Assembly (NCBI GenBank): GCA_903930225.1
Contig: CAIYXV010000098.1
Coordinates: 1-35,772, forward strand
DNA: 35,772 nt
Direction of reading: 5' to 3'
From: an uncultured bacterium
GTDB lineage: Bacteria; Margulisbacteria; WOR-1; XYC2-FULL-46-14; WPAF01
The translations under genes were made by a program, and so were the position numbers. Shown one piece after another: positions 17,096-29,921 of this stretch (the first letter of the stretch is position 1; each line of letters opens with the position of its first letter). Below the pieces are notes generated by a model. That model did no database searches, was not told the origin of the DNA, and saw only the letters and a program-made list of their open reading frames with translations.

Positions 17096-17593
17096 ATGCG
17101 GTTAAAGATAATCCAGCTGCCGAATCCGATCTTAAGAAAGAAGGCGAAATCGATCGCCAAGGTCGACGCCCGGATCCATAAGCTTATCGGAAACATGATC
17201 GAAACCCTGCACGCCGCCCCCGGGGTCGGCCTCGCCGCCCCGCAGGTAGGAGAAAGCATCCGGCTGATCGTGATTGACATCGGCGAAGGCGCCTTTGCCG
17301 TGGTCAATCCGAAAATAAAAAAAAGAAGCCGCGCCACGCAAACTTTTGACGAAGGATGCTTAAGCATGCTCGGATTGGTCGGGACGGTCATCCGTCCATC
17401 AAAAGTAACAGTCGAGGGGCTCGACAAGAACGGGGAAAAGATCACGATCGAGGCCGAAGGTTTTCTGGCAACCGTGCTCCAGCATGAGATCGACCATCTT
17501 GATGGGATTATGTTCGTCGACCATATCGAAGACAAATCGCTCATCCGCCTGGTCACTAAAAAAGAGGAAGAAGACAAGCAGGAGCTTATATGA
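17096..17593 (+). CDS. def: Peptide deformylase
   Basis: Removes the formyl group from nascent N-terminal methionine. All three metal-site motifs are present: GVGLAAPQVG, EGCLS with the metal-binding cysteine, and QHEIDHLDG with both histidines and the catalytic glutamate. At 165 residues it has a usual length. It follows priA, separated by a family A repeat. Its stop overlaps, as ATGA, the start of a fragment that begins exactly like Fmt, the enzyme that adds the formyl group. This shows the ancestral def-fmt order. Confidence 0.97.
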   Translation: MRLKIIQLPNPILRKKAKSIAKVDARIHKLIGNMIETLHAAPGVGLAAPQVGESIRLIVIDIGEGAFAVVNPKIKKRSRATQTFDEGCLSMLGLVGTVIRPSKVTVEGLDKNGEKITIEAEGFLATVLQHEIDHLDGIMFVDHIEDKSLIRLVTKKEEEDKQELI

Positions 17594-17664
17594 AAATCAT
17601 TTTCATGGGCACCCCGCCCGTTCGGGCCTTCCCCCTCCGCCTAGCAGCCGCCGCCGGGATTTAA
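17590..17664 (+). pseudogene. fmt: Truncated 5' fragment of methionyl-tRNA formyltransferase
   Basis: A 24-codon frame starts in the ATGA that ends def. Its first nine residues, MKIIFMGTP, are the canonical Fmt N-terminus; the sequence then departs into a low-complexity stretch and hits TAA. A small palindrome (GCCCGttCGGGC, 17616-17627) starts right where Fmt similarity ends, and a perfect 14-bp palindrome GGGATTTAAATCCC lies at 17655-17668. The intact fmt is at 28429-29358, and both share the 12-mer ATGGGCACCCCG (17605-17616; 28444-28455). This looks like the remains of fmt at its ancestral site next to def. The bases to 17732 carry no recognisable gene. Confidence 0.7.
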
Positions 17665-17732
17665 ATCCCCGCCGGCAAAATGGGAACCGCCCTCCAATTC
17701 AAAGAGATCCCGCTTTGGCAATAAAATAGTGG

Positions 17733-17738
17733 TAGAAT
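17733..17738 (+). promoter_or_regulatory. Candidate -10 box of the histidine kinase gene
   Basis: TAGAAT lies 6 nt before the ATG at 17745 with no ribosome binding site. A TTGGCA at 17715-17720 is too close to be a normal -35. Confidence 0.35.
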
Positions 17739-17744
17739 AAAATC

Positions 17745-19685
17745 ATGGAAGAGCTGTTTAAACAGACCATCGTACTAAGATCGGGGATGCTATATAATAT
17801 CACTATATCGGCCTTGATCTTTGTGGTGTGCTTATATTGCGCGCTCTCGATCATCCTAAAAACAAGAAGGACCCCTCAAAACCGTTCCTTCGCGGATTTC
17901 CTCCTGCTTCTGGGACTTTATTTTTTCATCCATGGGCTGGCCAATTTATTCGCCTGGTACGGGCTGACCTCATTTTACAAGAACCTCGACATATTTCTCC
18001 GTCTTGCTATCGTGCTGCAAGTCGTTCCACTGGCGTTCTGCCTTTTCAGTTCGATCTCGGAAAAAGAATCTTCAGTCTTTATCCCGACCTTTTTGCTGGG
18101 GATCCTTTCACTTGTGTTCTTCATGGTCTCCCTGTTTGATCGGGGCAGCATAGCTTACAGCTACTGGGGCCTCCATTTTTCGCTCGGGGTCTGGTCGGCC
18201 GGCGCTTATCTTGTCTTTGTTCTTTTCCCGATCGCGGGGACCTATGCTTATCTCATGATCTTAAAGATCAAAAAATCCGAGAACATCTTGATCCCGCTTT
18301 CCGTATTCATTTATATTTTGCTTGAAACGACTCAGCATCTCACCGCAACCTCTGATTGGTCCATATTATTATATCGATTGATCTATCTTCTGGTGGCGTC
18401 TGCCGGATATCTGTATTTTATAGACGAAGAGATCAAAAGCCAGGAGTTCATCCCGGTCGGAGCGCTCGCCCCCTCAAAACCCAAACTGCGCTTTCCCTTT
18501 TTTACCAAACTGCTGTTCCTGTTAATTTTAATCTCGGTGATACCGATTGTGATTTCCTCTTTTCTCATGCTGTTCACCTTCAGAGAGGTCATCGATCTTT
18601 ACATATATAAGCCGCTTTTCTGGGGAATGAAGGCCAGCCGGGAGCAGTTCATGACCGCTCTCACCAATGCCCAGTTCCAGACCTTTTTCCTGATGTCTAT
18701 TACCGTAATACTGGTTATTATCGCCGCTGCGATCATTTCCTTCAGCATCGCTCAGTCTTTAAGAAGGATCGGAAAAGGGATGGAACGGATATCCAGCGGG
18801 GACTTCAGCTTCCGGATCTTGCAGGAAAGCAACGATGAGATCGGCGATCTGGTCGTCTACTTCAATAACATGTCCGCCGAGATAAAACGGGCGCGCGACA
18901 TACTTGAGAACTGGAACCAGCAGCTCGACGCCGAGGTTAAAAAGAAGACCCGGCAGCTTAAAGAAGCCTATGAACAGTTGATCTCGCTCGACAAGCTCAA
19001 GACTGAATTTGTCTCGATGGTATCCCATGAATTGCGCACTCCTCTCACCAATATCGAGAATTTTGTAAGCCTGTTCGCGGACGGCATCCTGGGACCGGTG
19101 ACCGAAGAGCAAACAAAATCCTTAAAGACCATAAGTACCGCCAACCATAAAGAGCTGGCGCTGGTCAACCGGCTCCTCAATTTCTCGGACATGGAATCAG
19201 GCAAATTCTTTATCACCAAGGAACCGCAGGAGATGAACAAGATAATCCAAAGTGTTTTGGACAATTTAAGCGAGAAGATCAAAGAAAAGGGGGTTAAAGT
19301 AACCCTGAAACTTGATGCTCAAAACGACCGGTTCGCCGGGGACAAAGAAAAGATCTCCTTTGCCGTTCAGGACATCCTCGATAACGCCGTCAAGTTCTCG
19401 CCTGAATCGCCCCGGATAACGATCGAGACCAAAAACCGGGAGGAGCAATTGGAGATCAATATCTCGGACAATGGGATCGGCCTACCCGTCGATAAACTTG
19501 AGAACATCTTCGAAAAGTTTTATCAGGTCGATAGCAGCTGGACCAGAAATTTCGGGGGGACCGGCTTGGGCCTGGCGGTGGCAAAGGACATAATCCAGTC
19601 ACACGAAGGCACGATCCGGGCTGAATCCGAAGGCGAGGGACGGGGTACGACCATCAAGATATCGCTGCCGCTTATCCTCGCTTGA
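17745..19685 (+). CDS. Membrane-bound sensor histidine kinase
   Basis: The 646 residues start with about seven hydrophobic helices over roughly residues 15-230. A cytoplasmic linker and a second pair of helices follow (LLFLLILISVIPIVISSFLM near 255 and FFLMSITVILVIIAAAIISF near 310). A HAMP domain (SLRRIGKGMERISSGDFSF), a coiled linker and a HisKA domain with SHELRTPL (His428) come next. The HATPase_c domain shows DILDNAVKFSP, ISDNGIGLP, IFEKFYQVD and GGTGLGLAVAK. It is a complete kinase with an unusual two-part membrane sensor. It converges on the pilus operon, whose first gene is a receiver-only response regulator, so that regulator is the obvious candidate partner. It directly follows the fmt fragment. 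Confidence 0.93.
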   Translation: MEELFKQTIVLRSGMLYNITISALIFVVCLYCALSIILKTRRTPQNRSFADFLLLLGLYFFIHGLANLFAWYGLTSFYKNLDIFLRLAIVLQVVPLAFCLFSSISEKESSVFIPTFLLGILSLVFFMVSLFDRGSIAYSYWGLHFSLGVWSAGAYLVFVLFPIAGTYAYLMILKIKKSENILIPLSVFIYILLETTQHLTATSDWSILLYRLIYLLVASAGYLYFIDEEIKSQEFIPVGALAPSKPKLRFPFFTKLLFLLILISVIPIVISSFLMLFTFREVIDLYIYKPLFWGMKASREQFMTALTNAQFQTFFLMSITVILVIIAAAIISFSIAQSLRRIGKGMERISSGDFSFRILQESNDEIGDLVVYFNNMSAEIKRARDILENWNQQLDAEVKKKTRQLKEAYEQLISLDKLKTEFVSMVSHELRTPLTNIENFVSLFADGILGPVTEEQTKSLKTISTANHKELALVNRLLNFSDMESGKFFITKEPQEMNKIIQSVLDNLSEKIKEKGVKVTLKLDAQNDRFAGDKEKISFAVQDILDNAVKFSPESPRITIETKNREEQLEINISDNGIGLPVDKLENIFEKFYQVDSSWTRNFGGTGLGLAVAKDIIQSHEGTIRAESEGEGRGTTIKISLPLILA

Positions 19686-19690
19686 ACCGA

Positions 19691-20530
19691 TCAGATGGAA
19701 ATTCTCAGTTCTTTCTTTATCCTGCCTTTCTGTAAGATGACCCGGTTATCCCCTATCTCTATCACGGTATAACCGTTGACCGTTCCGCCTTTGGTCACGA
19801 TCTTATCGTTTATCAGCGCCATTTTTGATGACTTGACGGAAAATATTCCCTGAAGTTTTATCGCTTCCGGAGTGACCACGCGCGTGATCACCGGCGCTGC
19901 CGCCGGCGCCGCCGCCGGCAAGTTCTTTTTGGAATAAAATGGATTAGCAGAAGAAGCTGCGTATTCTTTTGGCTTAGCTGCGGATGCCGCTCTTATCGCC
20001 TCCGGAAGAACAAATACTGATATTGCCATCTGGACCGAAATCCCGCCCGATCCGGCGGCCGGCGTCTGTATGTTCAAATTATCGATGCGGACGGCGGTAG
20101 GCAGGTGCTTTAGCTGAGAAAGATATCTATCAAACGAAGAAAACGTGGTCGCGAACCTAAGGTCGATTGAAAGCCTTTTATAATTATTTTCGGTCACGAT
20201 ATTCTTTACCTGTATAAGGTCATAATCGATCTTGATGCCCTTGCCCGCCTGCGCCACGATCTGGTCTATTACCCTCGGGATCTCTTTATCGGTCGGTATC
20301 TTTGCCTTCAGGATGGCCAGCTCTTTCTCGAATTTTTTCTGTTCCGCCGGCCCTCCCGTGGAAAAGGTCTCATTGCCCGTGATGGTTTTTATCTGCGATC
20401 TCATCCTTGTGATATTTTTTCTTAAGTTCGCGACCACTTGTTTCTTGGGAGCGATCAGAATGCCATATATGAGCAGGCCCAGCACCAGGGCCAAAACCAC
20501 GGTCGCTATTTTTATTATGTTTTCTTTCAT
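19691..20530 (-). CDS. PilO-PilP fusion protein (type IV pilus alignment subcomplex)
   Basis: The 279-residue protein has a short cytoplasmic N-terminus, one membrane helix (ATVVLALVLGLLIYGILIA), a coiled coil, and a PilO-type ferredoxin-like domain (LKAKIPTDKEIPRVIDQI, then YKRLSIDLRFATTFSSFDRYLSQL). An alanine-rich linker follows. The last 80 residues resemble PilP/GspC homology domains: LQGIFSVKSSKMALINDKIV, GGTVNGYTVIEIGDNRVILQ and KGRIKKELRI. In most bacteria PilO and PilP are separate, PilP being a lipoprotein that links the inner-membrane platform to the secretin. Here the PilP part would be tethered through PilO. It follows PilM-PilN directly (TAGATG). Confidence 0.82.
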   Translation of the reverse strand: MKENIIKIATVVLALVLGLLIYGILIAPKKQVVANLRKNITRMRSQIKTITGNETFSTGGPAEQKKFEKELAILKAKIPTDKEIPRVIDQIVAQAGKGIKIDYDLIQVKNIVTENNYKRLSIDLRFATTFSSFDRYLSQLKHLPTAVRIDNLNIQTPAAGSGGISVQMAISVFVLPEAIRAASAAKPKEYAASSANPFYSKKNLPAAAPAAAPVITRVVTPEAIKLQGIFSVKSSKMALINDKIVTKGGTVNGYTVIEIGDNRVILQKGRIKKELRISI

Positions 20531-22081
20531 CTATTCCACCGTAAAAGTCATTCTAAAAAATGTGGCATCGCCCATCTTTTTTATCTCTTGCAGCCTGGTA
20601 TCGGAAAAATAAGGCGAATCCTCTATCCGGTTGAGCAGCTGGCTGGCGACCTTTGCGTCCGGGACTTCACCCGTTATCTCCATTTTTCTTTTTTCATTCT
20701 CGTATGATAGGCTGGTCAGCGTGGTATCTGCCGGTAAAATGGCCACCAATTGTTTCAGGATCTCCTGGACCTTGATCTCTCGTTTTTCTATTATTGACAG
20801 GATTGTCTGCCTCTCCTGCAGCTTGGTTACGCGGTCCATCAGAATGGTTGCGTTATCTATTTCCCGTTTGGCTGAATCCAGCGAGTAATTATAGTAAAGA
20901 TTGATCCCCACCATCAGCGCGATCACAAGAATCGGAAACCCCACAACCAGGGCGGTCGGGAGGGATAACGTTTCCAGGATCTTGGCGAATTTGATCTGGG
21001 GGAGAGAGATTTTTTTGCTTTCCTTGACCTTGACGAGGTTGGTCTCCCGGCACTGGTTAAGCGCCAGCCCGATCGCCAGCGCCAGCCTGGGCGCAGCTTC
21101 CTTTAATTTATTCTGGTCGATCTCCGGGGCGATCGTGAGGTTTAAAAGCGGATCGACCGTCTCAACTTTGATCAGCATGTTCTCCATGAGATACTCGGGC
21201 AGGTTCATGGTTACGGATGATCCTCCGCAAAGATAGATCTGCCTTATTTTTTCCTCAAAATACTGGTTGCGGTAATAATCAAAAGAGGATATGAACTCCT
21301 TCAACAGACCGCCAAATGACCCGATCATCGCGGTCTTTATCTCACCCGGGGTGAATGGTTCATTGGTTTGATCCGATTGCTGTGCGCCGGGCAGACCGTA
21401 TTTATTTTTTATCCCTTGCGCCGCCGGTGTCTCTATCTTCAAAGCTGAAGCCAGATTATCGGTTATATCAGATCCCCCAATGTAGATATCGCGGGTAAAT
21501 TGAAGGATGTGATTTTTGAAAAGGCTAAGCCCGGTTGATTTCTGCCCGATATCTATCAGCGCCACCGCCTCGTCTTTTGGCACGTCCAGTTTGGTTTTTA
21601 TCAGCTCATAAAGCGGCAGCGGATTGATCGTTACGCCGGCGCATTTTAGATTTGCCCGTTCGATGATCGCGACCAGTTCCTTGAGGGTCTGGGATTGGAC
21701 CGCGATCGCGATCACTTCCAGCATATGCGCGCCCTTTGACACCGTTTCTCCCAATAAGTAGTAATCAACCACCGCGTCCTCGATCGGGAAAGTTATAAAA
21801 TTCTTCGCTTCCCAGTATACGGCGTTCTTGATCTCGTCTTCGGGCATGGGGGGGAGGGTTATTCTTCTGGTCATAACCTTTGAACCATTAAGAGAGGTAA
21901 ATACCTCTTTTTCCTCGATCCCTAATTCCCTAAAAGCTTCAATTATGGTGCGGGTTATGGTTTGAGAAAGGGATTCTTCCGGTCTCGGCAGGATATCCGA
22001 GATCTGGTATCTGGAGAGGATACTGTCTTCCGTTACCTCAACTATCTTTATTGATTTTTCGCCTATATCCAGCCCGATCAT
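20531..22081 (-). CDS. PilM-PilN fusion protein (GspL-like architecture)
   Basis: The 516-residue protein begins with an actin-like PilM domain: IGLDIGEKSIKIVEV, VFTSLNGSKVMTRRITLPPM, AVYWEAKNFITFPIEDAVVD, the phosphate loop LIDIGQKSTGLSLF, and LCGGSSVTMNLPEYL. Around residues 375-400 comes a membrane helix (VVGFPILVIALMVGINLYYN), then a coiled coil and a PilN periplasmic domain (LVAILPADTTLTSLSYE, QLLNRIEDSPYFSDTRL). PilN normally carries the short peptide that docks on PilM; here both are one chain, as in GspL of type II secretion. It overlaps the upstream PilX-like gene by 4 bp. Confidence 0.88.
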   Translation of the reverse strand: MIGLDIGEKSIKIVEVTEDSILSRYQISDILPRPEESLSQTITRTIIEAFRELGIEEKEVFTSLNGSKVMTRRITLPPMPEDEIKNAVYWEAKNFITFPIEDAVVDYYLLGETVSKGAHMLEVIAIAVQSQTLKELVAIIERANLKCAGVTINPLPLYELIKTKLDVPKDEAVALIDIGQKSTGLSLFKNHILQFTRDIYIGGSDITDNLASALKIETPAAQGIKNKYGLPGAQQSDQTNEPFTPGEIKTAMIGSFGGLLKEFISSFDYYRNQYFEEKIRQIYLCGGSSVTMNLPEYLMENMLIKVETVDPLLNLTIAPEIDQNKLKEAAPRLALAIGLALNQCRETNLVKVKESKKISLPQIKFAKILETLSLPTALVVGFPILVIALMVGINLYYNYSLDSAKREIDNATILMDRVTKLQERQTILSIIEKREIKVQEILKQLVAILPADTTLTSLSYENEKRKMEITGEVPDAKVASQLLNRIEDSPYFSDTRLQEIKKMGDATFFRMTFTVE

Positions 22082-23247
22082 TGCTGCTCCTCCCAGGTGT
22101 CTTCTATCATCCCATATCCAGCCTGCAGCCCGATTGGAAAAATGCCCGGATATTTTGTGCGGTCATGGGTCAGCCGGCTGCTGCTATTATATGCCGAGCT
22201 CCCAAGGGTCCCCGACTGTATGCTCCCGCTAAAACTGGCATTATCCCCCAGCGTCACCTTTCCGCAATAGATTATACCATCCATCGTCCAGTTATTTCCA
22301 ATGGTAATATTAGCATTCGGGGCAATAAGCGCTACCCCGGGCCCAAAAGTGCCGGGAGCTGACAGATCGTCAAAAATGATATTGTTTTTGGCGAATAAAA
22401 GCCCGCTGCTTCCGATCGTCACATTATCCTGTATATTCAGATCATCATTGCAGATCAGTTTTACGTTGTCCCCTATTGAGCAGTTATTCATAATCTCAAT
22501 CCCTCCTCCCGCCACAACCGCGCCCGGTCCGGCAAGCGAATGGATCTTGATATCGTTCTGAAAATAGACCGTCCCGCCCGCCAAGTTTAAAAAGGCGATA
22601 TTGGTCTGGGAACTGCCGATCGCCTGAGCGGTAGTGATCTCGCCATTATAATAGGAAGGATCAAAATTAGGATAGCCGGGCGCCGGGTTGGGCATTGTTC
22701 CCTGCGTCCAACTGCCTGCTCCGCTGATGCTGTGTCCTGCAGTTACAACTACCTTGCCATTGACCACGCGCGCTCCGCTGTTTATCACTACGTTGCCGTC
22801 ACAGAAGACATCCCCGGAAACTAAGCTGCCGATATCTGCCGTCAGGTCCGATAGGCCAAATGAAGCATAGTCAAAAGCGGACGGATACTGGCAAATGTTC
22901 ATCGTAAGCGTTCTCTTGATCCCCAAAAAAGTTCCCTCGGAGGTGATAATGACATTTGCTTGAGGCGCGCCGGCGACATAGATGGTGAAGCTTCCTCCGC
23001 TAAAATTTTCGGTATATCCGGTCGTCCGCCATTCGCTCCCCATCCCCCCCTGGGAGGCGGGCGTCTTAAGATACCAGAGCGCCTTTTGCAGTCCGCCGTC
23101 CGCGATATATAAGGCCTTGGCCCGGTTCACGTAATATCCGATATTTTTTATGCCGGTCGAGGTCAGGTAGACAACGCTCCCCACGATCATGGAGAGTCCC
23201 ACCATCAGGATAAAGGTCAAAAGCATGTTGCCGCTTTTATGGTTCAT
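22078..23247 (-). CDS. PilX-like minor pilin with a long beta-rich C-terminal domain
   Basis: The N-terminus has a hydrophobic prepilin-type helix (MLLTFILMVGLSMIVGSVVY) without the FTLIE motif, followed by the PilX pattern NRAKALYIADGGLQKALWYL. At 389 residues it is much longer than the 140-residue PilX-like protein at 3154. The extra part, about residues 130-360, is a glycine/asparagine/valine-rich ladder with short repeats such as GDVFCDGNVVINSGARVV, NCSIGDNVKLICND and ANITIGNNWTMDG. This suggests a beta-roll or bactofilin-like solenoid. It could present an adhesive tip. It overlaps the genes on both sides (11 bp and 4 bp). Confidence 0.78.
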   Translation of the reverse strand: MNHKSGNMLLTFILMVGLSMIVGSVVYLTSTGIKNIGYYVNRAKALYIADGGLQKALWYLKTPASQGGMGSEWRTTGYTENFSGGSFTIYVAGAPQANVIITSEGTFLGIKRTLTMNICQYPSAFDYASFGLSDLTADIGSLVSGDVFCDGNVVINSGARVVNGKVVVTAGHSISGAGSWTQGTMPNPAPGYPNFDPSYYNGEITTAQAIGSSQTNIAFLNLAGGTVYFQNDIKIHSLAGPGAVVAGGGIEIMNNCSIGDNVKLICNDDLNIQDNVTIGSSGLLFAKNNIIFDDLSAPGTFGPGVALIAPNANITIGNNWTMDGIIYCGKVTLGDNASFSGSIQSGTLGSSAYNSSSRLTHDRTKYPGIFPIGLQAGYGMIEDTWEEQQ

Positions 23248-23722
23248 TTCTTACCTTTGCCTTTGACTCGATCGTTGCCGCCTCATTCGCGCTGTTCAAT
23301 CGTAAAGTAATGGTCACGAGCCTCGGACGGGGGGTAATATTATAATCGAATCCTAAAAAGCTGACCCCGCCGGCAATATTCTGGCTTGCGCCTCCGCTGG
23401 ACCTGATCAGATTATTGCCGGAAAGCGAATAAGTGACGATCTCTCCGGATTCGGATGTGCCGTTTAAATTAAAGTCCTTCCACCAAAAGCTAATATTGCC
23501 CGCTCCCGGATCGGTCACCATGAGGGATTCGCGGATCTCGGTCGTCATCCGGTTCATCGCGAGCTGGCCATTCCAAAAAACATCAGAACGGCTGAGCACC
23601 TGCGAGAATAACCTTAAACTTATGCTGTAGATCGAAACGATCATGGCGATCATTATTATGGAAATTGACATCGCCAGGATCAGCTCGAATATGGTAAAGC
23701 CTTTATTAGAAGCTTGTGACAT
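23237..23722 (-). CDS. Type IV pilin-like protein, PilW/GspJ type
   Basis: A 161-residue prepilin with cleavage site NKG/FTIFE, glutamate 5 in place, and helix LILAMSISIIMIAMIVSIYS. WNGQLAMNRMTTEIRESLMV is the PilW/GspJ block, and the C-terminal half is beta-rich (ISFWWKDFNLNG, VSFLGFDYNI). It overlaps the upstream PilV-like gene by 17 bp and the downstream PilX-like gene by 11 bp, so the three minor pilins are tightly coupled. Confidence 0.84.
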   Translation of the reverse strand: MSQASNKGFTIFELILAMSISIIMIAMIVSIYSISLRLFSQVLSRSDVFWNGQLAMNRMTTEIRESLMVTDPGAGNISFWWKDFNLNGTSESGEIVTYSLSGNNLIRSSGGASQNIAGGVSFLGFDYNITPRPRLVTITLRLNSANEAATIESKAKVRNEP

Positions 23723-24095
23723 AGGTCTCCATGGAAACTTGTTCCTCCCCGCCCCGGGACGGCGTCCAGTAAACGATCACCGACACATCCTTTAGATTTG
23801 CGTCTGGCGCGGCAATCGTTACCTCTCTTTTAAACTGGGGAAAGTTCGATACGACCGTTTTGGCCTCCGGCGTGACATTGCTGAACGAAAGGCTTTTGAT
23901 CTCCTCCATCTTCGACTGCGCCAGGTTCAAGGCGATGATCTCTGAATTGGAGAACGAGGAAACAAGCATGGTCGCGCTGAGAGCGCTTAGCAGCGGGACA
24001 AACACCAATACAACAAAGCTTATGGTTAGGAGAAGTTCAAAAAGAGTAAAACCACGCTCACGCCTGCAGTCAGGCGGATAAGCTTGGTCACCCAT
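23706..24095 (-). CDS. Type IV pilin-like protein, PilV/GspI type
   Basis: A 129-residue prepilin with cleavage site RERG/FTLFE and helix LLLTISFVVLVFVPLLSALS. The pattern ALNLAQSKMEEIKSLSF is typical of PilV/GspI. The 15-residue leader is partly encoded by a palindrome (24061-24077) that gives PPDCRR, another case of a palindrome in a prepilin leader. It begins 25 bp after the major pilin gene and overlaps the next gene by 17 bp. Confidence 0.84.
   Translation of the reverse strand: MGDQAYPPDCRRERGFTLFELLLTISFVVLVFVPLLSALSATMLVSSFSNSEIIALNLAQSKMEEIKSLSFSNVTPEAKTVVSNFPQFKREVTIAAPDANLKDVSVIVYWTPSRGGEEQVSMETYVTSF
24061..24077. repeat. Short palindrome inside a prepilin leader
   Basis: CGCCTG-CAGT-CAGGCG forms a 6-bp-arm inverted repeat (24061-24076). 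On the minus strand it encodes part of PPDCRR in the leader just before the cleavage site RERG/FTLFE. Confidence 0.55.
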
Positions 24096-24120
24096 GCATT
24101 TCTAAATCTTTTATGCCCGA

Positions 24121-24561
24121 TTAATGCCCGTAAACGTAGCCGTTGGTTATATAGACCGGGCTTCCGGCTGTTACTTCAGGCGAACCGGTATCGGTGATGT
24201 CCATGGCTCCGTCGCGGCCTGTGCCGATCGAATATACCACATAATACTTGCCGCTCGGTGATGACAGCACATATATATATTGAGTGGTTGCGGGGGCGAA
24301 CGGATCATACAGGTTCGACTCTAATACCGGATTGGTCTCGGCTAAAAGAGCTGCCTGGTAATTAGCCACATCCGGATACTTACTATTTTTAAGTAAATAA
24401 TTTTCAAGAGCCAGCTTCATCACCCTCAGATCTCCCATTGCCCGCGCTTCCTTCGCCTGATTTTGCATGCTGCGGAAACTGGGGATGGCAATTCCTACTA
24501 ACAGCGCGATAACCGCCATGACGATCAGCAACTCGATGATGGTAAAACCTCTTTTCCCCAT
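24121..24561 (-). CDS. Major pilin / pseudopilin (PilA/GspG type)
   Basis: A 146-residue prepilin with a minimal leader (MGKRG), cleavage before FTIIE and the canonical helix LLIVMAVIALLVGIAIPSF. ARAMGDLRVMKLALENYLLKN and the C-terminal YYVVYSIGTGRDGAMDITDTG resemble GspG-type calcium-loop pilins. There is no cysteine pair, so it would be stabilised otherwise. I start at 24561 because AAGGAG lies just upstream and the leader is canonical; the frame extends to 24642 but would cover the promoter. It has its own sigma-70 type promoter inside the operon, which fits high expression of a major subunit. Confidence 0.9.
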   Translation of the reverse strand: MGKRGFTIIELLIVMAVIALLVGIAIPSFRSMQNQAKEARAMGDLRVMKLALENYLLKNSKYPDVANYQAALLAETNPVLESNLYDPFAPATTQYIYVLSSPSGKYYVVYSIGTGRDGAMDITDTGSPEVTAGSPVYITNGYVYGH

Positions 24562-24613
24562 TTTTCTTTCTCCTTTTTTCCTTAACTGCTTAACTATTGA
24601 TTGAACCAATGAC

Positions 24614-24642
24614 ATTCTCGCAAACGCGATAAAATTTGTCAA
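24614..24642 (-). promoter_or_regulatory. Internal promoter of the major pilin gene
   Basis: On the minus strand a perfect TTGACA (24637-24642) is 17 bp from GAGAAT (24614-24619), between the pilC stop and the pilin start. The leader would be about 45 nt and contains AAGGAG. Confidence 0.65.
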
Positions 24643-24671
24643 GCGGTTTTCAAATTACTTTTACTTATTAT

Positions 24672-25892
24672 CTACCTCCGGATGGTCTCCACCATCCGGA
24701 AAATAGGCAGTATCACCGAAGCCATGATCATCCCCACGATCCCCCCGATAAGGACCAGAAAGATCGGTTCAACCATGGCGGTAAGTCTTTCGAGCGAATA
24801 ATCAACGGCTGACTCATAAAAATCCGCCACTTTAGACAGCATCTTGTCCAAAGATCCGGCTTCCTCTCCCACCGCGATCATCTTGACCGGCATGGGAGGG
24901 AATTCCCCGCTTATCCTGAATTGTTCGGCCAATGCGCCGCCCTTGCCGACCTTGTCCCGCGCCTCCTTGATCACGCCGGAATAGATAGCGTTGCCGGTGG
25001 TCTTTTCCAGCGTATCCAGCGCCTGCAGCATGGGGATCCCGGAAGAAAGCAAAGACGCCAGCGTTCTTGAGATGCGCGCGATCTCAACCTTCCGGGTCAA
25101 TTTGCCCAAAACCGGAAGGTCCAGCATTATTCTATCCATTATCGGTTTTATCCTTTTTCCGATCCTCATGAATCTAAAGATCAGAACCATGGCCGCGATC
25201 ACCGACAGGATCAAAGGCCACCAGGCCCGGATAAATAAATTCAGGTTGTACAGTATCAAGGTCGGCAGCGGCAAGCGGACGCCCGCGTCCTTATAGATGC
25301 TGACGAAGCTCGGAAGAACGGTAAGGACCACTACCACTATCACTACCACGCTAAACACAAGGAGTATGACCGGATAGAACAGCGCGCTGATCACCTTTTG
25401 CGAAAACTGGGCCTGTTTTTCAAAAAAGACCGCGACCCTCAGCAAGACCTCATCCAGGTTGCCGGCCACCTCTCCCGCCGCCACCATATTGACGAACAAC
25501 TGGGGAAAAATATCCGGATACTTTAGCAGGGCATTGGCAAACGATGTCCCCCCTTTGATATCAGCTGAAACTTTCTGGATGGCTTCTTTAAGCCTGGCAT
25601 TCTCGGTTTGATCCGCCAGAATATCGATCGCCGTGCTCAAGGGGATGCCGGAGCCGAGCATGGCGGAAAGCTGATTGGTGCACATGATCAGGTCTTCGAG
25701 CTTTATCTTGATGAACATGGTCAAAGGAATGGAAAATTGGAAAGAGAATGCCGGCGATTCCGGCTTCACTGAGACTACAACATATCCCTGTTTGCGCAGG
25801 TAATCAACGGCCGCTCCCATGGAAGCGGCGTCCATCTTGCCGTTTATCGCCCTGCCCTTATTATCTCTTGCTTTATATTTATAATTTGCCAT
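24672..25892 (-). CDS. pilC: Type IV pilus inner-membrane platform protein PilC (GspF family)
   Basis: The 406-residue protein has the two-fold GspF structure: an N-terminal YKYKARDNKGRAINGKMDA segment, the first domain with LEDLIMCTNQLSAMLGSGIPLSTAIDILADQ, and a membrane segment. The second domain repeats the pattern as KVEIARISRTLASLLSSGIPMLQALDTLEKTTGNA. It ends with the motif MVEPIFLVLIGGIVGMIMASV. Length and both F-domain repeats are complete. It is the platform that PilB turns during pilus assembly, and it begins 8 bp after pilB. Confidence 0.95.
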   Translation of the reverse strand: MANYKYKARDNKGRAINGKMDAASMGAAVDYLRKQGYVVVSVKPESPAFSFQFSIPLTMFIKIKLEDLIMCTNQLSAMLGSGIPLSTAIDILADQTENARLKEAIQKVSADIKGGTSFANALLKYPDIFPQLFVNMVAAGEVAGNLDEVLLRVAVFFEKQAQFSQKVISALFYPVILLVFSVVVIVVVVLTVLPSFVSIYKDAGVRLPLPTLILYNLNLFIRAWWPLILSVIAAMVLIFRFMRIGKRIKPIMDRIMLDLPVLGKLTRKVEIARISRTLASLLSSGIPMLQALDTLEKTTGNAIYSGVIKEARDKVGKGGALAEQFRISGEFPPMPVKMIAVGEEAGSLDKMLSKVADFYESAVDYSLERLTAMVEPIFLVLIGGIVGMIMASVILPIFRMVETIRR

Positions 25893-25900
25893 ATCTATCG

Positions 25901-27580
25901 CTACATCGTGATCTGCAATATCTCGTCCAGCGTCGTGATCCCGTTGACCGCCTTTAACAATCCATTCTCCCTTAGCGTCTTCATCCCCGCCGCCTGCGCC
26001 GCTTTTTTTATTGCCGCGTCGGATGCCTTGGTGGTCACCAGCTCTTTTAGCTGGTCGTTCAATATCAGCAATTCATAAATGCCGGTCCGGCCCTTGTATC
26101 CAATATCCTTGCATACTTTACACCCTTTTCCGGTGAAAAAAGCGGCATCCTTGATATCCGGCGGGAGTTCTTTTTTCACCTGCGGCGGCGGATCGTACGG
26201 GACCTTGCAGGAAGGGCAGATGATCCGGACCAGCCTCTGGGCAACGATCCCGACCACGGAAGAGGCGATCAGGAACGGCTCGATCCCCATATCGATCAGG
26301 CGGGTAAGGGCGGAAGGAGCGTCATTGGTATGCAGGGTGCTTAAGACCAGGTGGCCGGTCAGGGCGGATTGCACCGCGATCTCGGCAGTTTCCCTGTCCC
26401 TGATCTCCCCGACCATGATGATATCCGGGTCCTGCCGCAGGATCGACCGCAGGCCCGAAGAAAATGTAAGTCCGGCCTTGATGTTTATCTGCGCCTGTCT
26501 TATGCCGAACAGATGATATTCGACCGGGTCTTCGATCGTCATTATATTTTTCTTGGTCGAGTTCAAAATATTCAAATTCGAATACAGGGTCGTGGTCTTC
26601 CCTGATCCGGTGGGTCCGGTCACCAATATTATGCCGTGCGGAGCTTGAAGCAATCTTTCATATTTTAGCCGGTCCTCGTCGGAAAATCCGAGCTCGTCAA
26701 GGGTCATCAGGATGCTGTGGGTATCCAGGATCCTCATCACCACGTTCTCGCCGTAGACCGTGGGATAAGTTGAAACCCTCACGTCGATCGGGTTCCCCTC
26801 TATGTTTAACTGAAAACGCCCGTCCTGGGGAGCGCGTTTTATCGCGATGTTCAGGTCGGACATGATCTTGGCGCGCGAGATCACCGCGGCCTGCAGGTAC
26901 TTCGGCAAAGCGGCGATATCATACAAAACCCCGTCAATGCGGTTTCGGATCCGCACGATATTTTCATCCGGCTCGATATGGATGTCGGAAGCCCGGTCCC
27001 GGAAGGCCTGGGTGATGAAATGGTTGACCAGTTTGATGATCGGCGCTTCCTCGGCTATGTTTTGGAGGCGCGCGACTTCGGTATCCTCATTGACCACGGA
27101 AACGCTTTTTGAGTCTATCGACTTGATTATTTCGCCGATGGTCCCGGTCATGGCGACATAACTCTGATTTACGGCCTGAAGGATCTCCGAATACGGCGAG
27201 ACCTGAGGTTCGATGTCCATTCCCGTCCGGAACTTCAACTCGTCGATCACGATAATGTTCAAAGGATCCGCCATGGCAACGACCAGTTTGCCTTCGTTCT
27301 TGAAAAGGGGGAGAAGGTGATAACGGCGGGCCGTATTTTCCGGAATGATGCTGGTGACCAGAGAATCGGCTTTACCAAGGTCCGCGCGCGGGATGCCGCA
27401 GATCTCAACATAGTAGATCAAGATCTTTTCTTCTGCTACCAGTCCCTGTCTTATTAAAACCTGCCCGAGCGGTTCGCCGGTCTTTTCCACTTCAAAATGC
27501 ACGGTCTCAAGCTGGGCCGTGGTTATGAGCTTGTTCTCAATCAGGTATTCGCTAAGAGTTTTTCTTGACATAGCCGCCAT
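25901..27580 (-). CDS. pilB: Type IV pilus assembly ATPase PilB (GspE family)
   Basis: The 559-residue ATPase has an N-terminal MshEN/GspE_N domain (LSEYLIENKLITTAQLETV, LGQVLIRQGLVAEEKIL), then the catalytic domain. That domain carries Walker A GPTGSGKTTTLYS (around residue 320), the Asp box TIEDPVEY, Walker B DPDIIMVGEIRD and the His box LSTLHTNDAPSAL. The tetracysteine zinc motif is CPSCKVPYDPP and GCKVCKDIGYKGRTGIYE. It powers pilus extension. There is no pilT retraction ATPase in the window. Either the ATG at 27580 or that at 27571 could be the start; the family N-terminus fits both. Confidence 0.96.
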   Translation of the reverse strand: MAAMSRKTLSEYLIENKLITTAQLETVHFEVEKTGEPLGQVLIRQGLVAEEKILIYYVEICGIPRADLGKADSLVTSIIPENTARRYHLLPLFKNEGKLVVAMADPLNIIVIDELKFRTGMDIEPQVSPYSEILQAVNQSYVAMTGTIGEIIKSIDSKSVSVVNEDTEVARLQNIAEEAPIIKLVNHFITQAFRDRASDIHIEPDENIVRIRNRIDGVLYDIAALPKYLQAAVISRAKIMSDLNIAIKRAPQDGRFQLNIEGNPIDVRVSTYPTVYGENVVMRILDTHSILMTLDELGFSDEDRLKYERLLQAPHGIILVTGPTGSGKTTTLYSNLNILNSTKKNIMTIEDPVEYHLFGIRQAQINIKAGLTFSSGLRSILRQDPDIIMVGEIRDRETAEIAVQSALTGHLVLSTLHTNDAPSALTRLIDMGIEPFLIASSVVGIVAQRLVRIICPSCKVPYDPPPQVKKELPPDIKDAAFFTGKGCKVCKDIGYKGRTGIYELLILNDQLKELVTTKASDAAIKKAAQAAGMKTLRENGLLKAVNGITTLDEILQITM

Positions 27581-27620
27581 ATTATTTTATCCCGGCCAAT
27601 GCCCGTGAACGGGCCTCCGG

Positions 27621-27989
27621 TTATTGCTCCTTAAGAAGTTTTTTTACTTCATCAACCAGGATCTCTGATTCAAATGGTTTGGCAATGTATACTTGGGCCC
27701 CCGCCTGCAATCCTCTTTGGCGGTGCTCCGCTCCGCCGGCAACCGTTAAAAATATGATGGGGATGCTGGAGGTCTCCGGATCATGGCGAATTCTCCGGCA
27801 GACCTCAAATCCGTCGAGACCGGGCATCATAACATCAAGAATGATCAGATCGGGCTTCTCAGTTTTGGATTTTTCGATCGCTTCCAGCCCGTTAATTGCC
27901 TTGATGATATCATAACCATAGTTTTCCAATCTCATTTTAACGGCCTCAACTATGTCCGGCTCATCATCCACGATCAATATTCTCGCCAT
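27621..27989 (-). CDS. Receiver-only response regulator (CheY/PilG/PilH-like)
   Basis: The 122-residue protein is a single receiver domain: ARILIVDDEPDIVEA with the acidic pair, phosphoacceptor Asp52 in LIILDVMMPG, the threonine in IIFLTVAGG and the lysine K104 in IAKPFES. There is no output domain, so it must act by protein contact, as PilG/PilH or CheY do. It is the first gene of the pilus operon, and the kinase gene 17745-19685 lies at the other end. The ATG at 27989 has GAGGTG at ideal spacing; the GTG 9 bp upstream (27998) is less likely. Confidence 0.93.
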   Translation of the reverse strand: MARILIVDDEPDIVEAVKMRLENYGYDIIKAINGLEAIEKSKTEKPDLIILDVMMPGLDGFEVCRRIRHDPETSSIPIIFLTVAGGAEHRQRGLQAGAQVYIAKPFESEILVDEVKKLLKEQ

Positions 27990-28056
27990 TTGATCCACCT
28001 CTTTACGGCATCACGACCCAATTTTATCATATCCTGGATTTTTTACCATTATCAGT

Positions 28057-28085
28057 TTGACTTTAAAATAATTTGAAATTATAAT
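28057..28085 (+). promoter_or_regulatory. Promoter for the 28105 gene and fmt
   Basis: TTGACT (28057-28062), a 17-bp spacer and TATAAT (28080-28085) form a strong sigma-70 type promoter. A GGGGTG ribosome binding site follows before the ATG at 28105. The response regulator is read divergently from the same gap; candidate minus-strand -10 sites lie at 28021-28031 but are weak. Confidence 0.7.
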
Positions 28086-28104
28086 AATCAGGGGTGTTTG
28101 AAAA

Positions 28105-28425
28105 ATGATCCCATTGTCTTTTCTGGACTTTTTAAACGACATAAAAGTGACCATGGCTTTTGGGGCGGCTTTCATTATATTTGGGATCCTGCTGAACTTT
28201 GGGATCCGAAGGTCATCGCTTTCTTCAAAGGCCTGGCTCTTCTTTTTTCCCGCGATCCTGGTCCTGACCTTTATAATGTTGCAGGAGTTTCTCGTGGAAT
28301 ACGGCACGTTCACGCCGTTCAAGATGATGATCGTATTATTGAATTTTACGGTCATAACGCTCTTTTTCGCCGGCCTGCTGACGCATTACTTTGAAATATC
28401 AAAGAATCAGAAATCCAACAAATAA
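28105..28425 (+). CDS. Small 3-TM membrane protein of unknown function
   Basis: The 106-residue protein has three hydrophobic segments: VTMAFGAAFIIFGILLNFGI, AWLFFFPAILVLTFIMLQEF and MIVLLNFTVITLFFAGLLTH. It has a basic C-terminal tail (EISKNQKSNK). I do not recognise a family. It has a clear promoter and ribosome binding site and ends 3 bp before fmt, so the two are co-transcribed. The link with fmt may be accidental, arising from the rearrangement that separated fmt from def. Confidence 0.7.
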   Translation: MIPLSFLDFLNDIKVTMAFGAAFIIFGILLNFGIRRSSLSSKAWLFFFPAILVLTFIMLQEFLVEYGTFTPFKMMIVLLNFTVITLFFAGLLTHYFEISKNQKSNK

Positions 28426-28428
28426 TAA

Positions 28429-29358
28429 ATGCGGTTAATTTTTATGGGCACCCCGAAGCACGCGGCGGTCTGCCTGGAAGCGCTGATCGCGGCGGAGGAG
28501 CAGATCATACTGGCGGTCACCCAGCCCGACCGGCCCAAAGGGAGACACCTTCACACTACCCCTTCCCCCGTCAAAGAACTGGCGCAGAAATACAAGATCC
28601 CCGTCGAAACTCCGGAAAAAGCGAAGGACGCGGTCTTCATCGATCGGATCCGTTCGCTAACGCCGGACCTGATCGTGGTGGTCGCTTACGGAAAGATCCT
28701 GCCTAAGGAACTGATCGATATCCCAAAATTTGGCGCGATCAATGTTCACGCTTCGCTTTTGCCAAAATACCGCGGGGCCGCCCCCGTGCAGTGGGCAATA
28801 TTAAAAGGTGAAGCGGAAACCGGCGTGACGGTGATGCAAATATCCGAAACGCTAGATACCGGCGACATCATCATGCAGGACAAGTTATTGATCGACCCGA
28901 AGGATACGGCTGAAAGCCTGCTCGATAAATTGTTCGACCGCGGCGCGCAGACGCTGCTCTTGGCGGTCGATCAAATAAAAAAAGGAACGGCCGGAAAGAC
29001 GCCACAGAGAGAAGCTGACGCAACCTTCGCGCCCGCGCTCGCGAAAGAGAGCGGGGAAATAGACTGGAAGAAACCGGCGGTCCAGATCAACAATCGCGTC
29101 CGCGCCCTGATCCCCTGGCCGGTCGCCCACACTTTTTACAAAGGAAAAATGCTCAAGCTCTGGTCCGCGAAACCGGTATCGCTTCCGGGAAAATTCCAGC
29201 CGGGGGAGATCGTTGATGTAAAGGACGACCTGATCGTCGCCTGCGGAGTGGGGTCGCTTCTGGTACGCGAAGTACAGCTCGAAGGCGGGAAAAAAATGAG
29301 CGCACATGATTTTGTGCGAGGACATCGCCTATCCATCGGCGATTCCTTTCCCTGCTAG
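28429..29358 (+). CDS. fmt: Methionyl-tRNA formyltransferase
   Basis: Formylates initiator Met-tRNA with 10-formyl-THF. The N-terminus RLIFMGTPKHAAVCLEAL is canonical, followed by AVTQPDRPKGR, VVAYGKILPKELI and the catalytic block NVHASLLPKYRGAAPVQWAI with the conserved asparagine and histidine. ETGVTVMQISETLDTGDI follows. The C-terminal tRNA-binding domain includes INNRVRALIPWPVAHTF. At 309 residues it is complete. It is not next to def, the usual neighbour; a truncated fmt start is found at def instead. Confidence 0.97.
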   Translation: MRLIFMGTPKHAAVCLEALIAAEEQIILAVTQPDRPKGRHLHTTPSPVKELAQKYKIPVETPEKAKDAVFIDRIRSLTPDLIVVVAYGKILPKELIDIPKFGAINVHASLLPKYRGAAPVQWAILKGEAETGVTVMQISETLDTGDIIMQDKLLIDPKDTAESLLDKLFDRGAQTLLLAVDQIKKGTAGKTPQREADATFAPALAKESGEIDWKKPAVQINNRVRALIPWPVAHTFYKGKMLKLWSAKPVSLPGKFQPGEIVDVKDDLIVACGVGSLLVREVQLEGGKKMSAHDFVRGHRLSIGDSFPC

Positions 29359-29474: not shown

Positions 29475-29921
29475 ATGAAATGCCCGGCCTGCGATATAGA
29501 CAACGATAAAGTTCTCGATTCCCGTCCTACCGAAGACGCCTTAGCCATCAGAAGAAGAAGGGAATGCCTGGAATGCGGCAACCGCTTCACTTCATATGAA
29601 AGGGTCGAAGAAAAACCCCTGCTGGTAATCAAGCGCGACGGCCGCCACGAAGAGTTCAACCGGGACAAGATCCTGGCCGGACTGGTCCGCGCCTGCGAAA
29701 AAAGGCCGGTCGACCTGGACGTGATCGAGAACATCGTCGACCAGGTAGAGAAAATGGTCCGCAAATCAAATAAGGAGATCAAAACCGCCCAGATCGGCGA
29801 GTTCATAATGGAAAGAATGCAGAAGGTTGACCAGATCTCTTATGTCCGCTTCGCTTCGGTTTACCGGCAGTTCACGGATGTCACTGATTTCGTACAAGTC
29901 GTAAAGGAGGTTTCAGCATGA
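29475..29921 (+). CDS. nrdR: Transcriptional repressor NrdR
   Basis: NrdR is the nucleotide-sensing repressor of ribonucleotide reductase genes. The N-terminal zinc ribbon has CPACDIDNDKVLDSRPTED and RRRRECLECGNRFTSYER, and the ATP-cone follows with VIKRDGRHEEFNRDKILAGL. VRFASVYRQFTDVTDF is the conserved C-terminal block. The 148-residue length is standard. It is the first gene of the operon it presumably controls, and its stop overlaps the nrdD start by 4 bp. GGAG upstream is the probable ribosome binding site. Confidence 0.97.
   Translation: MKCPACDIDNDKVLDSRPTEDALAIRRRRECLECGNRFTSYERVEEKPLLVIKRDGRHEEFNRDKILAGLVRACEKRPVDLDVIENIVDQVEKMVRKSNKEIKTAQIGEFIMERMQKVDQISYVRFASVYRQFTDVTDFVQVVKEVSA

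Follow-up and report, generated by a model that had tools for sequence, protein, structure and literature searches.

The type IVa pilus machine consists of PilB, PilC, PilM, PilN, PilO, PilP, PilQ, PilD and PilT. Each of the two gene fusions described below is already in print for other bacteria. PilM and PilN of the C. difficile type IV pilus are fused, according to an excerpt of PMC6916266; this species is a monoderm, and PilP and the secretin are said in general statements to be absent from monoderms. PilO and PilP form one chain in Pseudomonas putida (UniProt Q88CU9), which was reported as one of a few cases in the part of PMC3169554 that also argued the PilO:PilP subunit ratio from such fusions. 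In the type II secretion system (T2SS), GspL combines a PilM-like and a PilN-like part in a single polypeptide, and the HR domain of GspC is PilP-like (passages of PMC4471445). The Thermus thermophilus pilin ComZ was reported to bind DNA and was argued to be a tip pilin, with FfIBP named as its closest solenoid relative, whereas the inserted domain of GspK was described as α-helical (extracts of PMC6561018).

The window analyzed here, a stretch of 35,772 nucleotides from a Candidatus Margulisiibacteriota MAG, contained a single minus-strand operon (27998-19691) that encodes a receiver, PilB/GspE, PilC/GspF, a GspG-like pilin, I, J and K minor pilins, PilM-PilN and PilO-PilP. The ten genes proposed in a sequence-only reading of this DNA were all found in place. 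They are listed below with the two flanking genes, which we presume to be def and fmt.

17096..17593, plus strand: def (peptide deformylase), left flank of the probable insertion site
17745..19685, plus strand: membrane histidine kinase, 646 aa, HAMP-HisKA-HATPase (Pfam domains), converging on the operon
19691..20530, minus strand: PilO-PilP fusion, 279 aa; PilO 46.1 bits (residues 63-173, cut-off 22)
20531..22081, minus strand: PilM-PilN fusion, 516 aa; PilM_2 139.3 bits (residues 3-342, cut-off 27), PilN 38.9 bits (residues 441-512, cut-off 22.8), both Pfam
22078..23247, minus strand: K-position minor pilin, 389 aa, putative tip pilin from its AlphaFold model
23237..23722, minus strand: GspJ-position minor pilin, 161 aa; N_methyl 18.5 bits and ComGF-like 21.4 bits, both under cut-off
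23706..24095, minus strand: GspI-position minor pilin, 129 aa; N_methyl 17.5 bits; gspI 24.6 bits, under the cut-off of 44.35
24121..24561, minus strand: GspG-like major (pseudo)pilin, 146 aa, leader MGKRG/FTIIE; N_methyl 29.4 bits (on the longer ORF 24121-24642)
24672..25892, minus strand: PilC/GspF platform protein, 406 aa; T2SSF (PF00482) 212.1 bits, two copies
25901..27580, minus strand: PilB/GspE-type assembly ATPase, 559 aa, with MshEN domain; T2SSE 462.7 bits, MshEN 66.7 bits
27621..27998, minus strand: stand-alone receiver (REC) encoded by the operon's first gene, 125 aa with a GTG start (ATG at 27989); PF00072 107.5 bits
28429..29358, plus strand: fmt (methionyl-tRNA formyltransferase), right flank, adjoining def in most relatives

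The minus-strand genes were closely packed, with gaps of 40 (REC-E), 8 (E-F), 110 (F-G), 25 (G-I) and 0 (MN-OP) bases and overlaps of 17 (I/J), 11 (J/K) and 4 (K/MN) bases, and the end of the plus-strand kinase gene was 5 bases from OP. For the major pilin, the ATG at 24561 (146 aa) is a more likely start than the TTG at 24642. A promoter and terminator scan gave consensus matches only. The locus probably encodes a second machine for a type IVa-like pilus (or a short pseudopilus), with a two-chain PilMNOP complex and with outer-membrane and processing parts that are encoded elsewhere. Sequence or modeling revealed a PilB-like motor with MshEN, a PilC platform, pilins, and an alignment complex in which the four PilM, PilN, PilO and PilP chains are reduced to two.

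The domains of PilM, PilN and PilO known from the type IVa pilus all exceeded their Pfam cut-offs, and an alignment of PilM-PilN (A4) against the PDB matched the PilM chain 3jc8_Ma with an E-value of 4.8e-56. The second fusion contained a transmembrane segment and coil (residues 2-51), the PilO domain, a disordered linker and a PilP/GspC-HR-like domain (residues 226-276). Its AlphaFold model (pLDDT 84, pTM 0.47) resembled PilO 2rjz (Z 14.4), GspC-HR 3oss (Z 9.6) and PilP 2lc4 and 2y4y (Z 8.6). The PilP part was thus recognized by fold, and it reached no Pfam cut-off (best CdsD_C, 19.0 bits against 27). The Pfam PilP family was listed neither for this C-terminus nor for six stand-alone small ORFs at the PilP position in other phyla, two of which scored above cut-off in the related CdsD_C and T2SSB families; the PilP assignment is therefore based on fold and gene position. 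For the PilP alignment with MAFFT, the P rows were trimmed because full-length rows misplaced the DPF motif. Full-length relatives of the fusions were found in three genomes (G027, G009 and G053), which excludes chance or a frameshift for both. The fusions proposed in the sequence-only reading were thus confirmed, PilN by Pfam and PilP by model fold rather than by Pfam, and its parallel between PilM-PilN and GspL and its PilP domain tethered by the transmembrane helix of PilO in place of a lipid were both supported.

The PilM-PilN fusion was class-wide, and the PilO-PilP fusion was present in 4 of the 74 genomes of the phylum. One of these, G053, belongs to another class and has an ATPase outside the window clade, with the other PilB type (93/69); the PilO-PilP fusion may have arisen once or more than once. 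The operon of G009 was ordered E-F-G-I-J-K-MN-OP-Q-REC-HK, that of G012 was E-F-PilT-G-G'-I-J-K-K'-MN-O followed by the contig end, and in G053 a secretin lay inside the same kind of operon. All 24 clusters encoding PilP (22 separate, 2 fused) had a secretin with the N0 domain, whereas all eight clusters without PilP had a secretin without N0, a concordance that is statistically weak because it reflects one event in the secretin tree.

The ATPase had the Walker A motif GPTGSGKT at 322 and two CxxC pairs. It scored 632.7 bits against the GspE model TIGR02533, just above the cut-off of 630.25, and 617.8 bits against the PilB model TIGR02538, below the cut-off of 675.65, under which the other PilB of the genome also fell (622.4 bits). 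These scores, and a gene order that also fits a T2SS, count against a type IVa-like reading. The best PDB match was PilB 5zfr (507 bits), and in the ATPase tree the window protein grouped with those of G009 and G012 (100/96).

Could the locus instead encode a T2SS-like pseudopilus of the order E-F-G-I-J-K-L-M/C, in which PilM-PilN would play the part of GspL, PilO-PilP would be a fused GspM-GspC, and folded proteins would be pushed out by way of a secretin from another locus? The margin of 2.4 bits over the GspE cut-off and a gene order as in gspC-O of E. coli K-12 are consistent with it. The best scores of the pilins were against GspG and GspI, though under cut-off (58.8 bits for the major pilin against TIGR01710, cut-off 88.85), and the PilP part was nearest in fold to GspC-HR, by a difference in Z close to a tie by the rule of the tool. 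However, the five T2SS GspE references lay together on one side of a branch (92/81) with the window ATPase outside, the PilM part spanned positions 1-338 of the 340-position PilM_2 model, the operon lacked a secretin, and the related operon of G012 contained PilT. The K protein also argued against a T2SS, since its model showed a β-solenoid instead of the α-helical insert of GspK. A secretion pseudopilus is therefore unlikely, and the type IVa-like machine is preferred.

None of the ORFs read in the window encoded a secretin, PilT or a peptidase, which had suggested a minimal, non-retracting pilus working without them. The absence held for the window, but all three families were encoded elsewhere in the genome. 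One peptidase and one PilT-family ATPase (449.1 bits against the PilT model, cut-off 319.1) were both on contig C72, and two secretins, both with the N0 domain, were on C9 and C103, so that candidate PilQ, PilD and PilT proteins appear to be available from outside the operon. In addition, the prepilins had peptidase sites, the PilP domain was retained whereas a related clade without PilP also lacked the secretin N0, and the same kind of operon carried PilT in G012 or a secretin in G009 and G053. The minimal pilus was rejected as very improbable. The genome also held a second PilM-PilN pilus cluster, and the suggestion that the window encodes a distinct pilus or pseudopilus set was supported. 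The orphan secretin on C103 was considered as a dedicated partner. It was present in 30 of the 31 genomes of the class (G000-G030; E 1e-61 or better), with or without the fusion operon, the exception by that count being G023 (best match 4.3e-17). This distribution did not support dedication, and the protein remains a candidate.

The kinase and the receiver at the two ends of the operon were considered as a dedicated two-component pair controlling the pilus. HK-REC-ATPase runs occurred within the class in clusters of the third type (G005, G015 and G025) and in six further loci, mostly of Patescibacteria, and REC-HK adjoined OP-Q in G009. Receivers recur next to PilB: of the 24 ATPases with enough upstream sequence, 11 were immediately preceded by a REC-only ORF. 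The "regulator" read as the first gene was indeed a response regulator receiver, but consisted of the receiver domain alone, without an output domain. Against the pair, the def-fmt interval was occupied by a full-length kinase orthologue in G027 and G019 and by a shorter orthologue in G022, and none of these sites contained a pilus operon; that of G027 was located away from its kinase. The window and G009 kinases also had no sensor region in common. A kinase and receiver conserved together with the operon were not found at these def-fmt sites, and such a unit was rejected. Judged by these sequences, the kinase probably occupied the def-fmt site before the operon did, and the frame of kinase and receiver, correct as a description of position, probably results from insertion of the operon beside the kinase. 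Dedicated control by the two proteins is thus doubtful.

The AlphaFold model of K (pLDDT 81, pTM 0.67), built on four sequences, consisted of a pilin helix and strands (residues 5-119) and a β-solenoid (residues 129-360). It aligned with ComZ (6qvi) with Z 14.8 and an rmsd of 3.5 over 215 residues at 14% sequence identity, and with ice-binding proteins, FfIBP among them, with Z up to 17.9. On this model, K would be a tip pilin whose β-solenoid resembles that of ComZ; its N-terminus lacks the Glu usual in prepilins. The ComEA- and ComEC-family genes of the genome were both on contig C89. The other pilus cluster of the genome also encoded a K protein of the same family, matching the K proteins of relatives, which prevents an assignment of DNA capture to the window machine.

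In the type IVa-like machine, the fiber would be primed by the minor pilins I, J and K, with K capping the tip, and the ATPase would add GspG-like pilins at PilC. Across the inner membrane, PilM-PilN would connect the ATPase with PilO. The PilP end, attached by a disordered linker of some 40 residues, would bind the N0 domain of a secretin, and other loci of the genome would supply that secretin along with the peptidase and the retraction ATPase. The machine is perhaps used for adhesion or DNA capture; the likeliest use, and the weakest step, would be a tip-adhesive fiber catching a ligand, possibly DNA. A broader proposal is that the class rebuilt PilM-N-O-P in three ways (PilM-PilN with separate O and P; PilM-PilN with PilO-PilP; and PilM-PilN with O, PilP and the secretin N0 being lost together) and that the window machine is a dedicated ComZ-type DNA-capture pilus borrowing a secretin, perhaps that of C103. 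This is offered tentatively and is rather unlikely.

These findings do not overturn established knowledge of pili. A limited literature search found no operon with both fusions, and one statement that a few PilO-PilP fusions exist. With such an operon, the ratios PilM:PilN and PilO:PilP would both be set to 1:1 within a single machine, and purification and structure determination may be simpler for a two-protein complex. Within the class, machines whose PilP is separate, fused or missing lend themselves to comparison, PilP and the secretin N0 varying together among them, and K would add, from its model, a β-solenoid tip pilin outside Thermus. With the type IVa pilus machine, the locus shares a PilB-like ATPase, PilC, the PilM, PilN, PilO and PilP domains and class III prepilins, and the PilT, PilQ and PilD families are also present in the genome. 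It differs in its single-chain PilM-PilN and PilO-PilP, in an operon without secretin or PilT, and in a GspG-like major pilin and putative solenoid K pilin. The PilM-PilN fusion is shared with C. difficile, which has no PilO-PilP; the P. putida protein is like PilO-PilP by description rather than by sequence. In the T2SS of E. coli K-12, GspM and GspC are separate genes, unlike PilO-PilP. K, which may bind DNA, resembles in model fold the larger ComZ of the T. thermophilus ComZ/PilA2 competence pilus tip.

The window formed contig C98 of a genome of 1.69 Mb (137 contigs, 99.2% complete). A scan of named genomes revealed two Candidatus Margulisiibacteriota MAGs as the closest named relatives, and the host is therefore presumed to belong to this phylum. 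The minus-strand operon ran in the order receiver, ATPase, platform protein, GspG-like pilin, three further pilin-like proteins, PilM-PilN and PilO-PilP, with the following landmarks.

27998-27621, minus strand: receiver, first gene of the operon
operon's end at 19691, minus strand: PilO-PilP
17745-19685, plus strand: histidine kinase, stopping 5 bases from the operon

A 516-aa chain carried both PilM_2 (139.3 bits) and PilN (38.9 bits), each above the Pfam cut-off. PilO in the 279-aa chain also exceeded its Pfam cut-off (46.1 bits), and no Pfam family reached the cut-off in the PilP part. The 279-aa protein was modelled on an alignment of 26 rows, with a mean pLDDT of 84 and a pTM of 0.47. 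The model had a long N-terminal helix (residues 2-51) and a PilO-like domain; some 40 residues (185-224) were of low confidence and led to a domain of six strands (226-276) whose pLDDT block means were 90 to 97. Against solved structures, residues 78-174 of the model matched P. aeruginosa PilO (2rjz; Z 14.4, 1.8 Å over 95), residues 221-278 matched the GspC HR domain (3oss; Z 9.6, 2.2 Å over 57), and P. aeruginosa PilP was matched by residues 216-279 (2lc4; Z 8.6, 4.5 Å over 64) and 220-278 (2y4y; Z 8.6, 2.4 Å over 59). A fused-family profile of five rows, four of which spanned the PilP part, also matched small ORFs located 3' of PilO, mostly directly before the secretin, in Nitrospirae and Deltaproteobacteria MAGs (E 1e-9 to 1e-12 mostly). 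As modelled, the C-terminal part of the 279-aa chain is a real PilP part. The sequence-only reading had placed PilN and PilP folds in the two chains, and both were recovered, PilN over the Pfam cut-off and PilP by model match.

The fused-family profile had matches in 42 of the 74 phylum genomes, and complete PilO-PilP frames were found in four: the window's own genome (279 aa) and its relatives G027 (278), G009 (283) and G053 (293). The G012 frame was interrupted by the contig end, and each remaining listed match covered one half of the fusion. Among 46 named loci found by PilM-PilN, one held a complete PilO-PilP chain, the cut G012 copy being the other Margulisiibacteriota locus; a PilM ORF longer than 500 aa occurred in only two, both Margulisiibacteriota. 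The window PilM-PilN was matched in 29 of the 31 class genomes (G000-G030), and the best-matching open frame was at least 527 aa in 28 of these 29 (361 aa in G028); judged from these frames, the PilM-PilN fusion is class-wide. PilN was above the Pfam cut-off in the window and in G027 (28.9 bits) and weak in a second copy on contig C9 of the same genome (19.2 bits vs cut-off 22.8). The NLLP motif, which we take to mark the start of ordinary PilN, was kept at the PilM/PilN joint in the C9 and G008 copies and decayed in copies from operons like the window's.

The reported absence of PilT, secretin and peptidase was true of the window but not of the genome, in which contig C72 encoded the single prepilin peptidase and the one PilT-like protein (449.1 bits, cut-off 319.1) among four GspE-family ATPases, and two secretins were located on C9 and C103. 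C9 carried a second pilus cluster with three pilin-like genes and a K protein (K naming the position of the candidate tip pilin), in which PilM-PilN and a secretin were accompanied by PilO and PilP-like proteins encoded separately; C39 ended with receiver, PilB, receiver and PilC. The window lacked parts that relatives hold in place in the operon. The similar operon of G012 (L043:2267-3325, L043:3398-7661) contained PilT between the platform protein and the major pilin, with the major pilin and K genes doubled; that of G009 had PilO-PilP followed by secretin, receiver and kinase; and G053 showed the order kinase, PilM-PilN, PilO-PilP, secretin, receiver, ATPase, platform protein and pilins. 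Unrelated-looking ORFs were inserted beside K in G027 (151 aa, L041:4167-4622) and G009 (318 aa, L042:12495-13451). The C9 PilP-like protein had a hydrophobic N-terminal stretch, and its first 60 residues contained no cysteine; therefore, the lipid anchor was missing already in the unfused form. The C103 secretin (L013:9688-10809; 373 aa, with N0, the domain to which PilP docks) was an orphan distant from other pilus genes, and 30 of the 31 class genomes had a match to it with E 1e-61 or better. An orphan GspE-type ATPase on C130 (L014:6543-7523; 326 aa) lacked both the N-terminal domain and the CxxC pairs and shared 56% identity with its window counterpart across 324 columns.

N0 was scored in 32 pilus clusters of the phylum with a profile built in this analysis, the orphan C103 secretin being excluded from the count. 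PilP was encoded in 24 clusters, separately in 22 and in fused form in 2, and each of these 24 had a secretin with N0. The other eight represented a third kind of cluster in the class, with PilM-PilN, PilO and secretin but without PilP (L196, L197, L198, L199, L200, L202, L203 and L204, in G008, G015, G025, G009, G005, G010, G020 and G023, respectively). N0 was found by this profile in none of their secretins, and a Pfam scan of five of them was concordant. These eight secretins formed one clade (100/100), so the concordance amounts to one event. The accessible part of one report describes the globular domain of PilP as the partner of N0 (PMC4471445); the concordance fits this role and suggests that the fused PilP of the window would still dock to a secretin.

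The window ATPase reached the cut-off of the GspE model (632.7, cut-off 630.25) and fell below that of PilB (617.8, cut-off 675.65); its best match among solved chains was PilB (507 bits, vs 431 for GspE). In a tree of 34 ATPases, support was 100/96 for its grouping with those of G009 and G012 and 92/81 for a separate group of the five T2SS references, with the deeper branching order unsure. The presence of PilT in the G012 operon and a K protein that does not resemble GspK favour a type IVa-like pilus over T2SS without proving it.

The operon lay in a conserved run whose genes we take to be priA-def-fmt-nrdR-nrdD. The presumed nrdR-nrdD run continued after fmt in many relatives; in the window, a tandem nrdD-like pair (714 and 691 aa, 29918-34127) lay 3' of nrdR. 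In 20 of the 30 fmt loci read, own genome included, def was within about 220 bases of fmt. A kinase lay between them in G027, G019 and G022, a kinase with additional genes in G021, and other genes in G005 and G018; def was not found at the G024 fmt locus, a receiver adjoined fmt at the contig end in G003, and the G029 locus was cut. The kinases of G027 (35% over 315 residues) and G019 (32% over 339) resembled the window kinase, sensor region included. The G027 pilus operon was located away from def-fmt, and the fused-family profile detected no fused PilO-PilP in G019 or G022. Since kinase orthologues occupy def-fmt with no pilus operon there, the likeliest history is insertion of the operon between fmt and a kinase already resident at the site. 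The framing of the operon by kinase and receiver thus stands as a position but probably not as a unit, a kinase being present there in three genomes with no pilus operon at that site. The def-fmt gap (window 17593-28429; L170-L181) was a recurrent insertion site, occupied by a lone kinase, by a kinase plus further genes, by unrelated genes only or by the window's pilus operon. Of 24 ATPase loci with sufficient upstream sequence, 11 had a receiver next to the ATPase, and because this place recurs, the receiver probably acts on the pilus. The order kinase-receiver-PilB-PilC was common to six mostly Patescibacteria pilus loci (L103, L111, L112, L114, L120, L124).

A model of K (389 aa, four rows; pLDDT 81, pTM 0.67) showed a pilin helix, pilin strands up to residue 119, a beta-solenoid (129-360) and a low-confidence final strand. 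It matched Thermus ComZ with Z 14.8 (3.5 Å over 215) and ice-binding proteins with Z values as high as 17.9. The solved minor pilin 7o5y aligned across residues 34-389 (99 residues), by which the solenoid would sit within the pilin fold, ahead of the last strand. The predicted arrangement is like that of ComZ, whose solenoid is inserted before the last strand and for which, in the accessible text, DNA binding is reported and a tip location argued (PMC6561018). ComEA- and ComEC-family genes lay together on contig C89 (518-2417) of the same genome, which suggests natural competence in the lineage. DNA capture by the window machine in particular is a guess, since the C9 cluster also encodes a related K.

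A literature search, mostly short of full text, did not find an operon that combines both fusions with a solenoid K pilin, and the combination is apparently new within the literature searched. Each fusion is already known elsewhere: as far as the accessible portions of the sources go, the PilM-PilN fusion is shared with C. difficile, where it has been reported (PMC6916266), and the PilO-PilP fusion with P. putida, the example among the few such fusions reported (PMC3169554).
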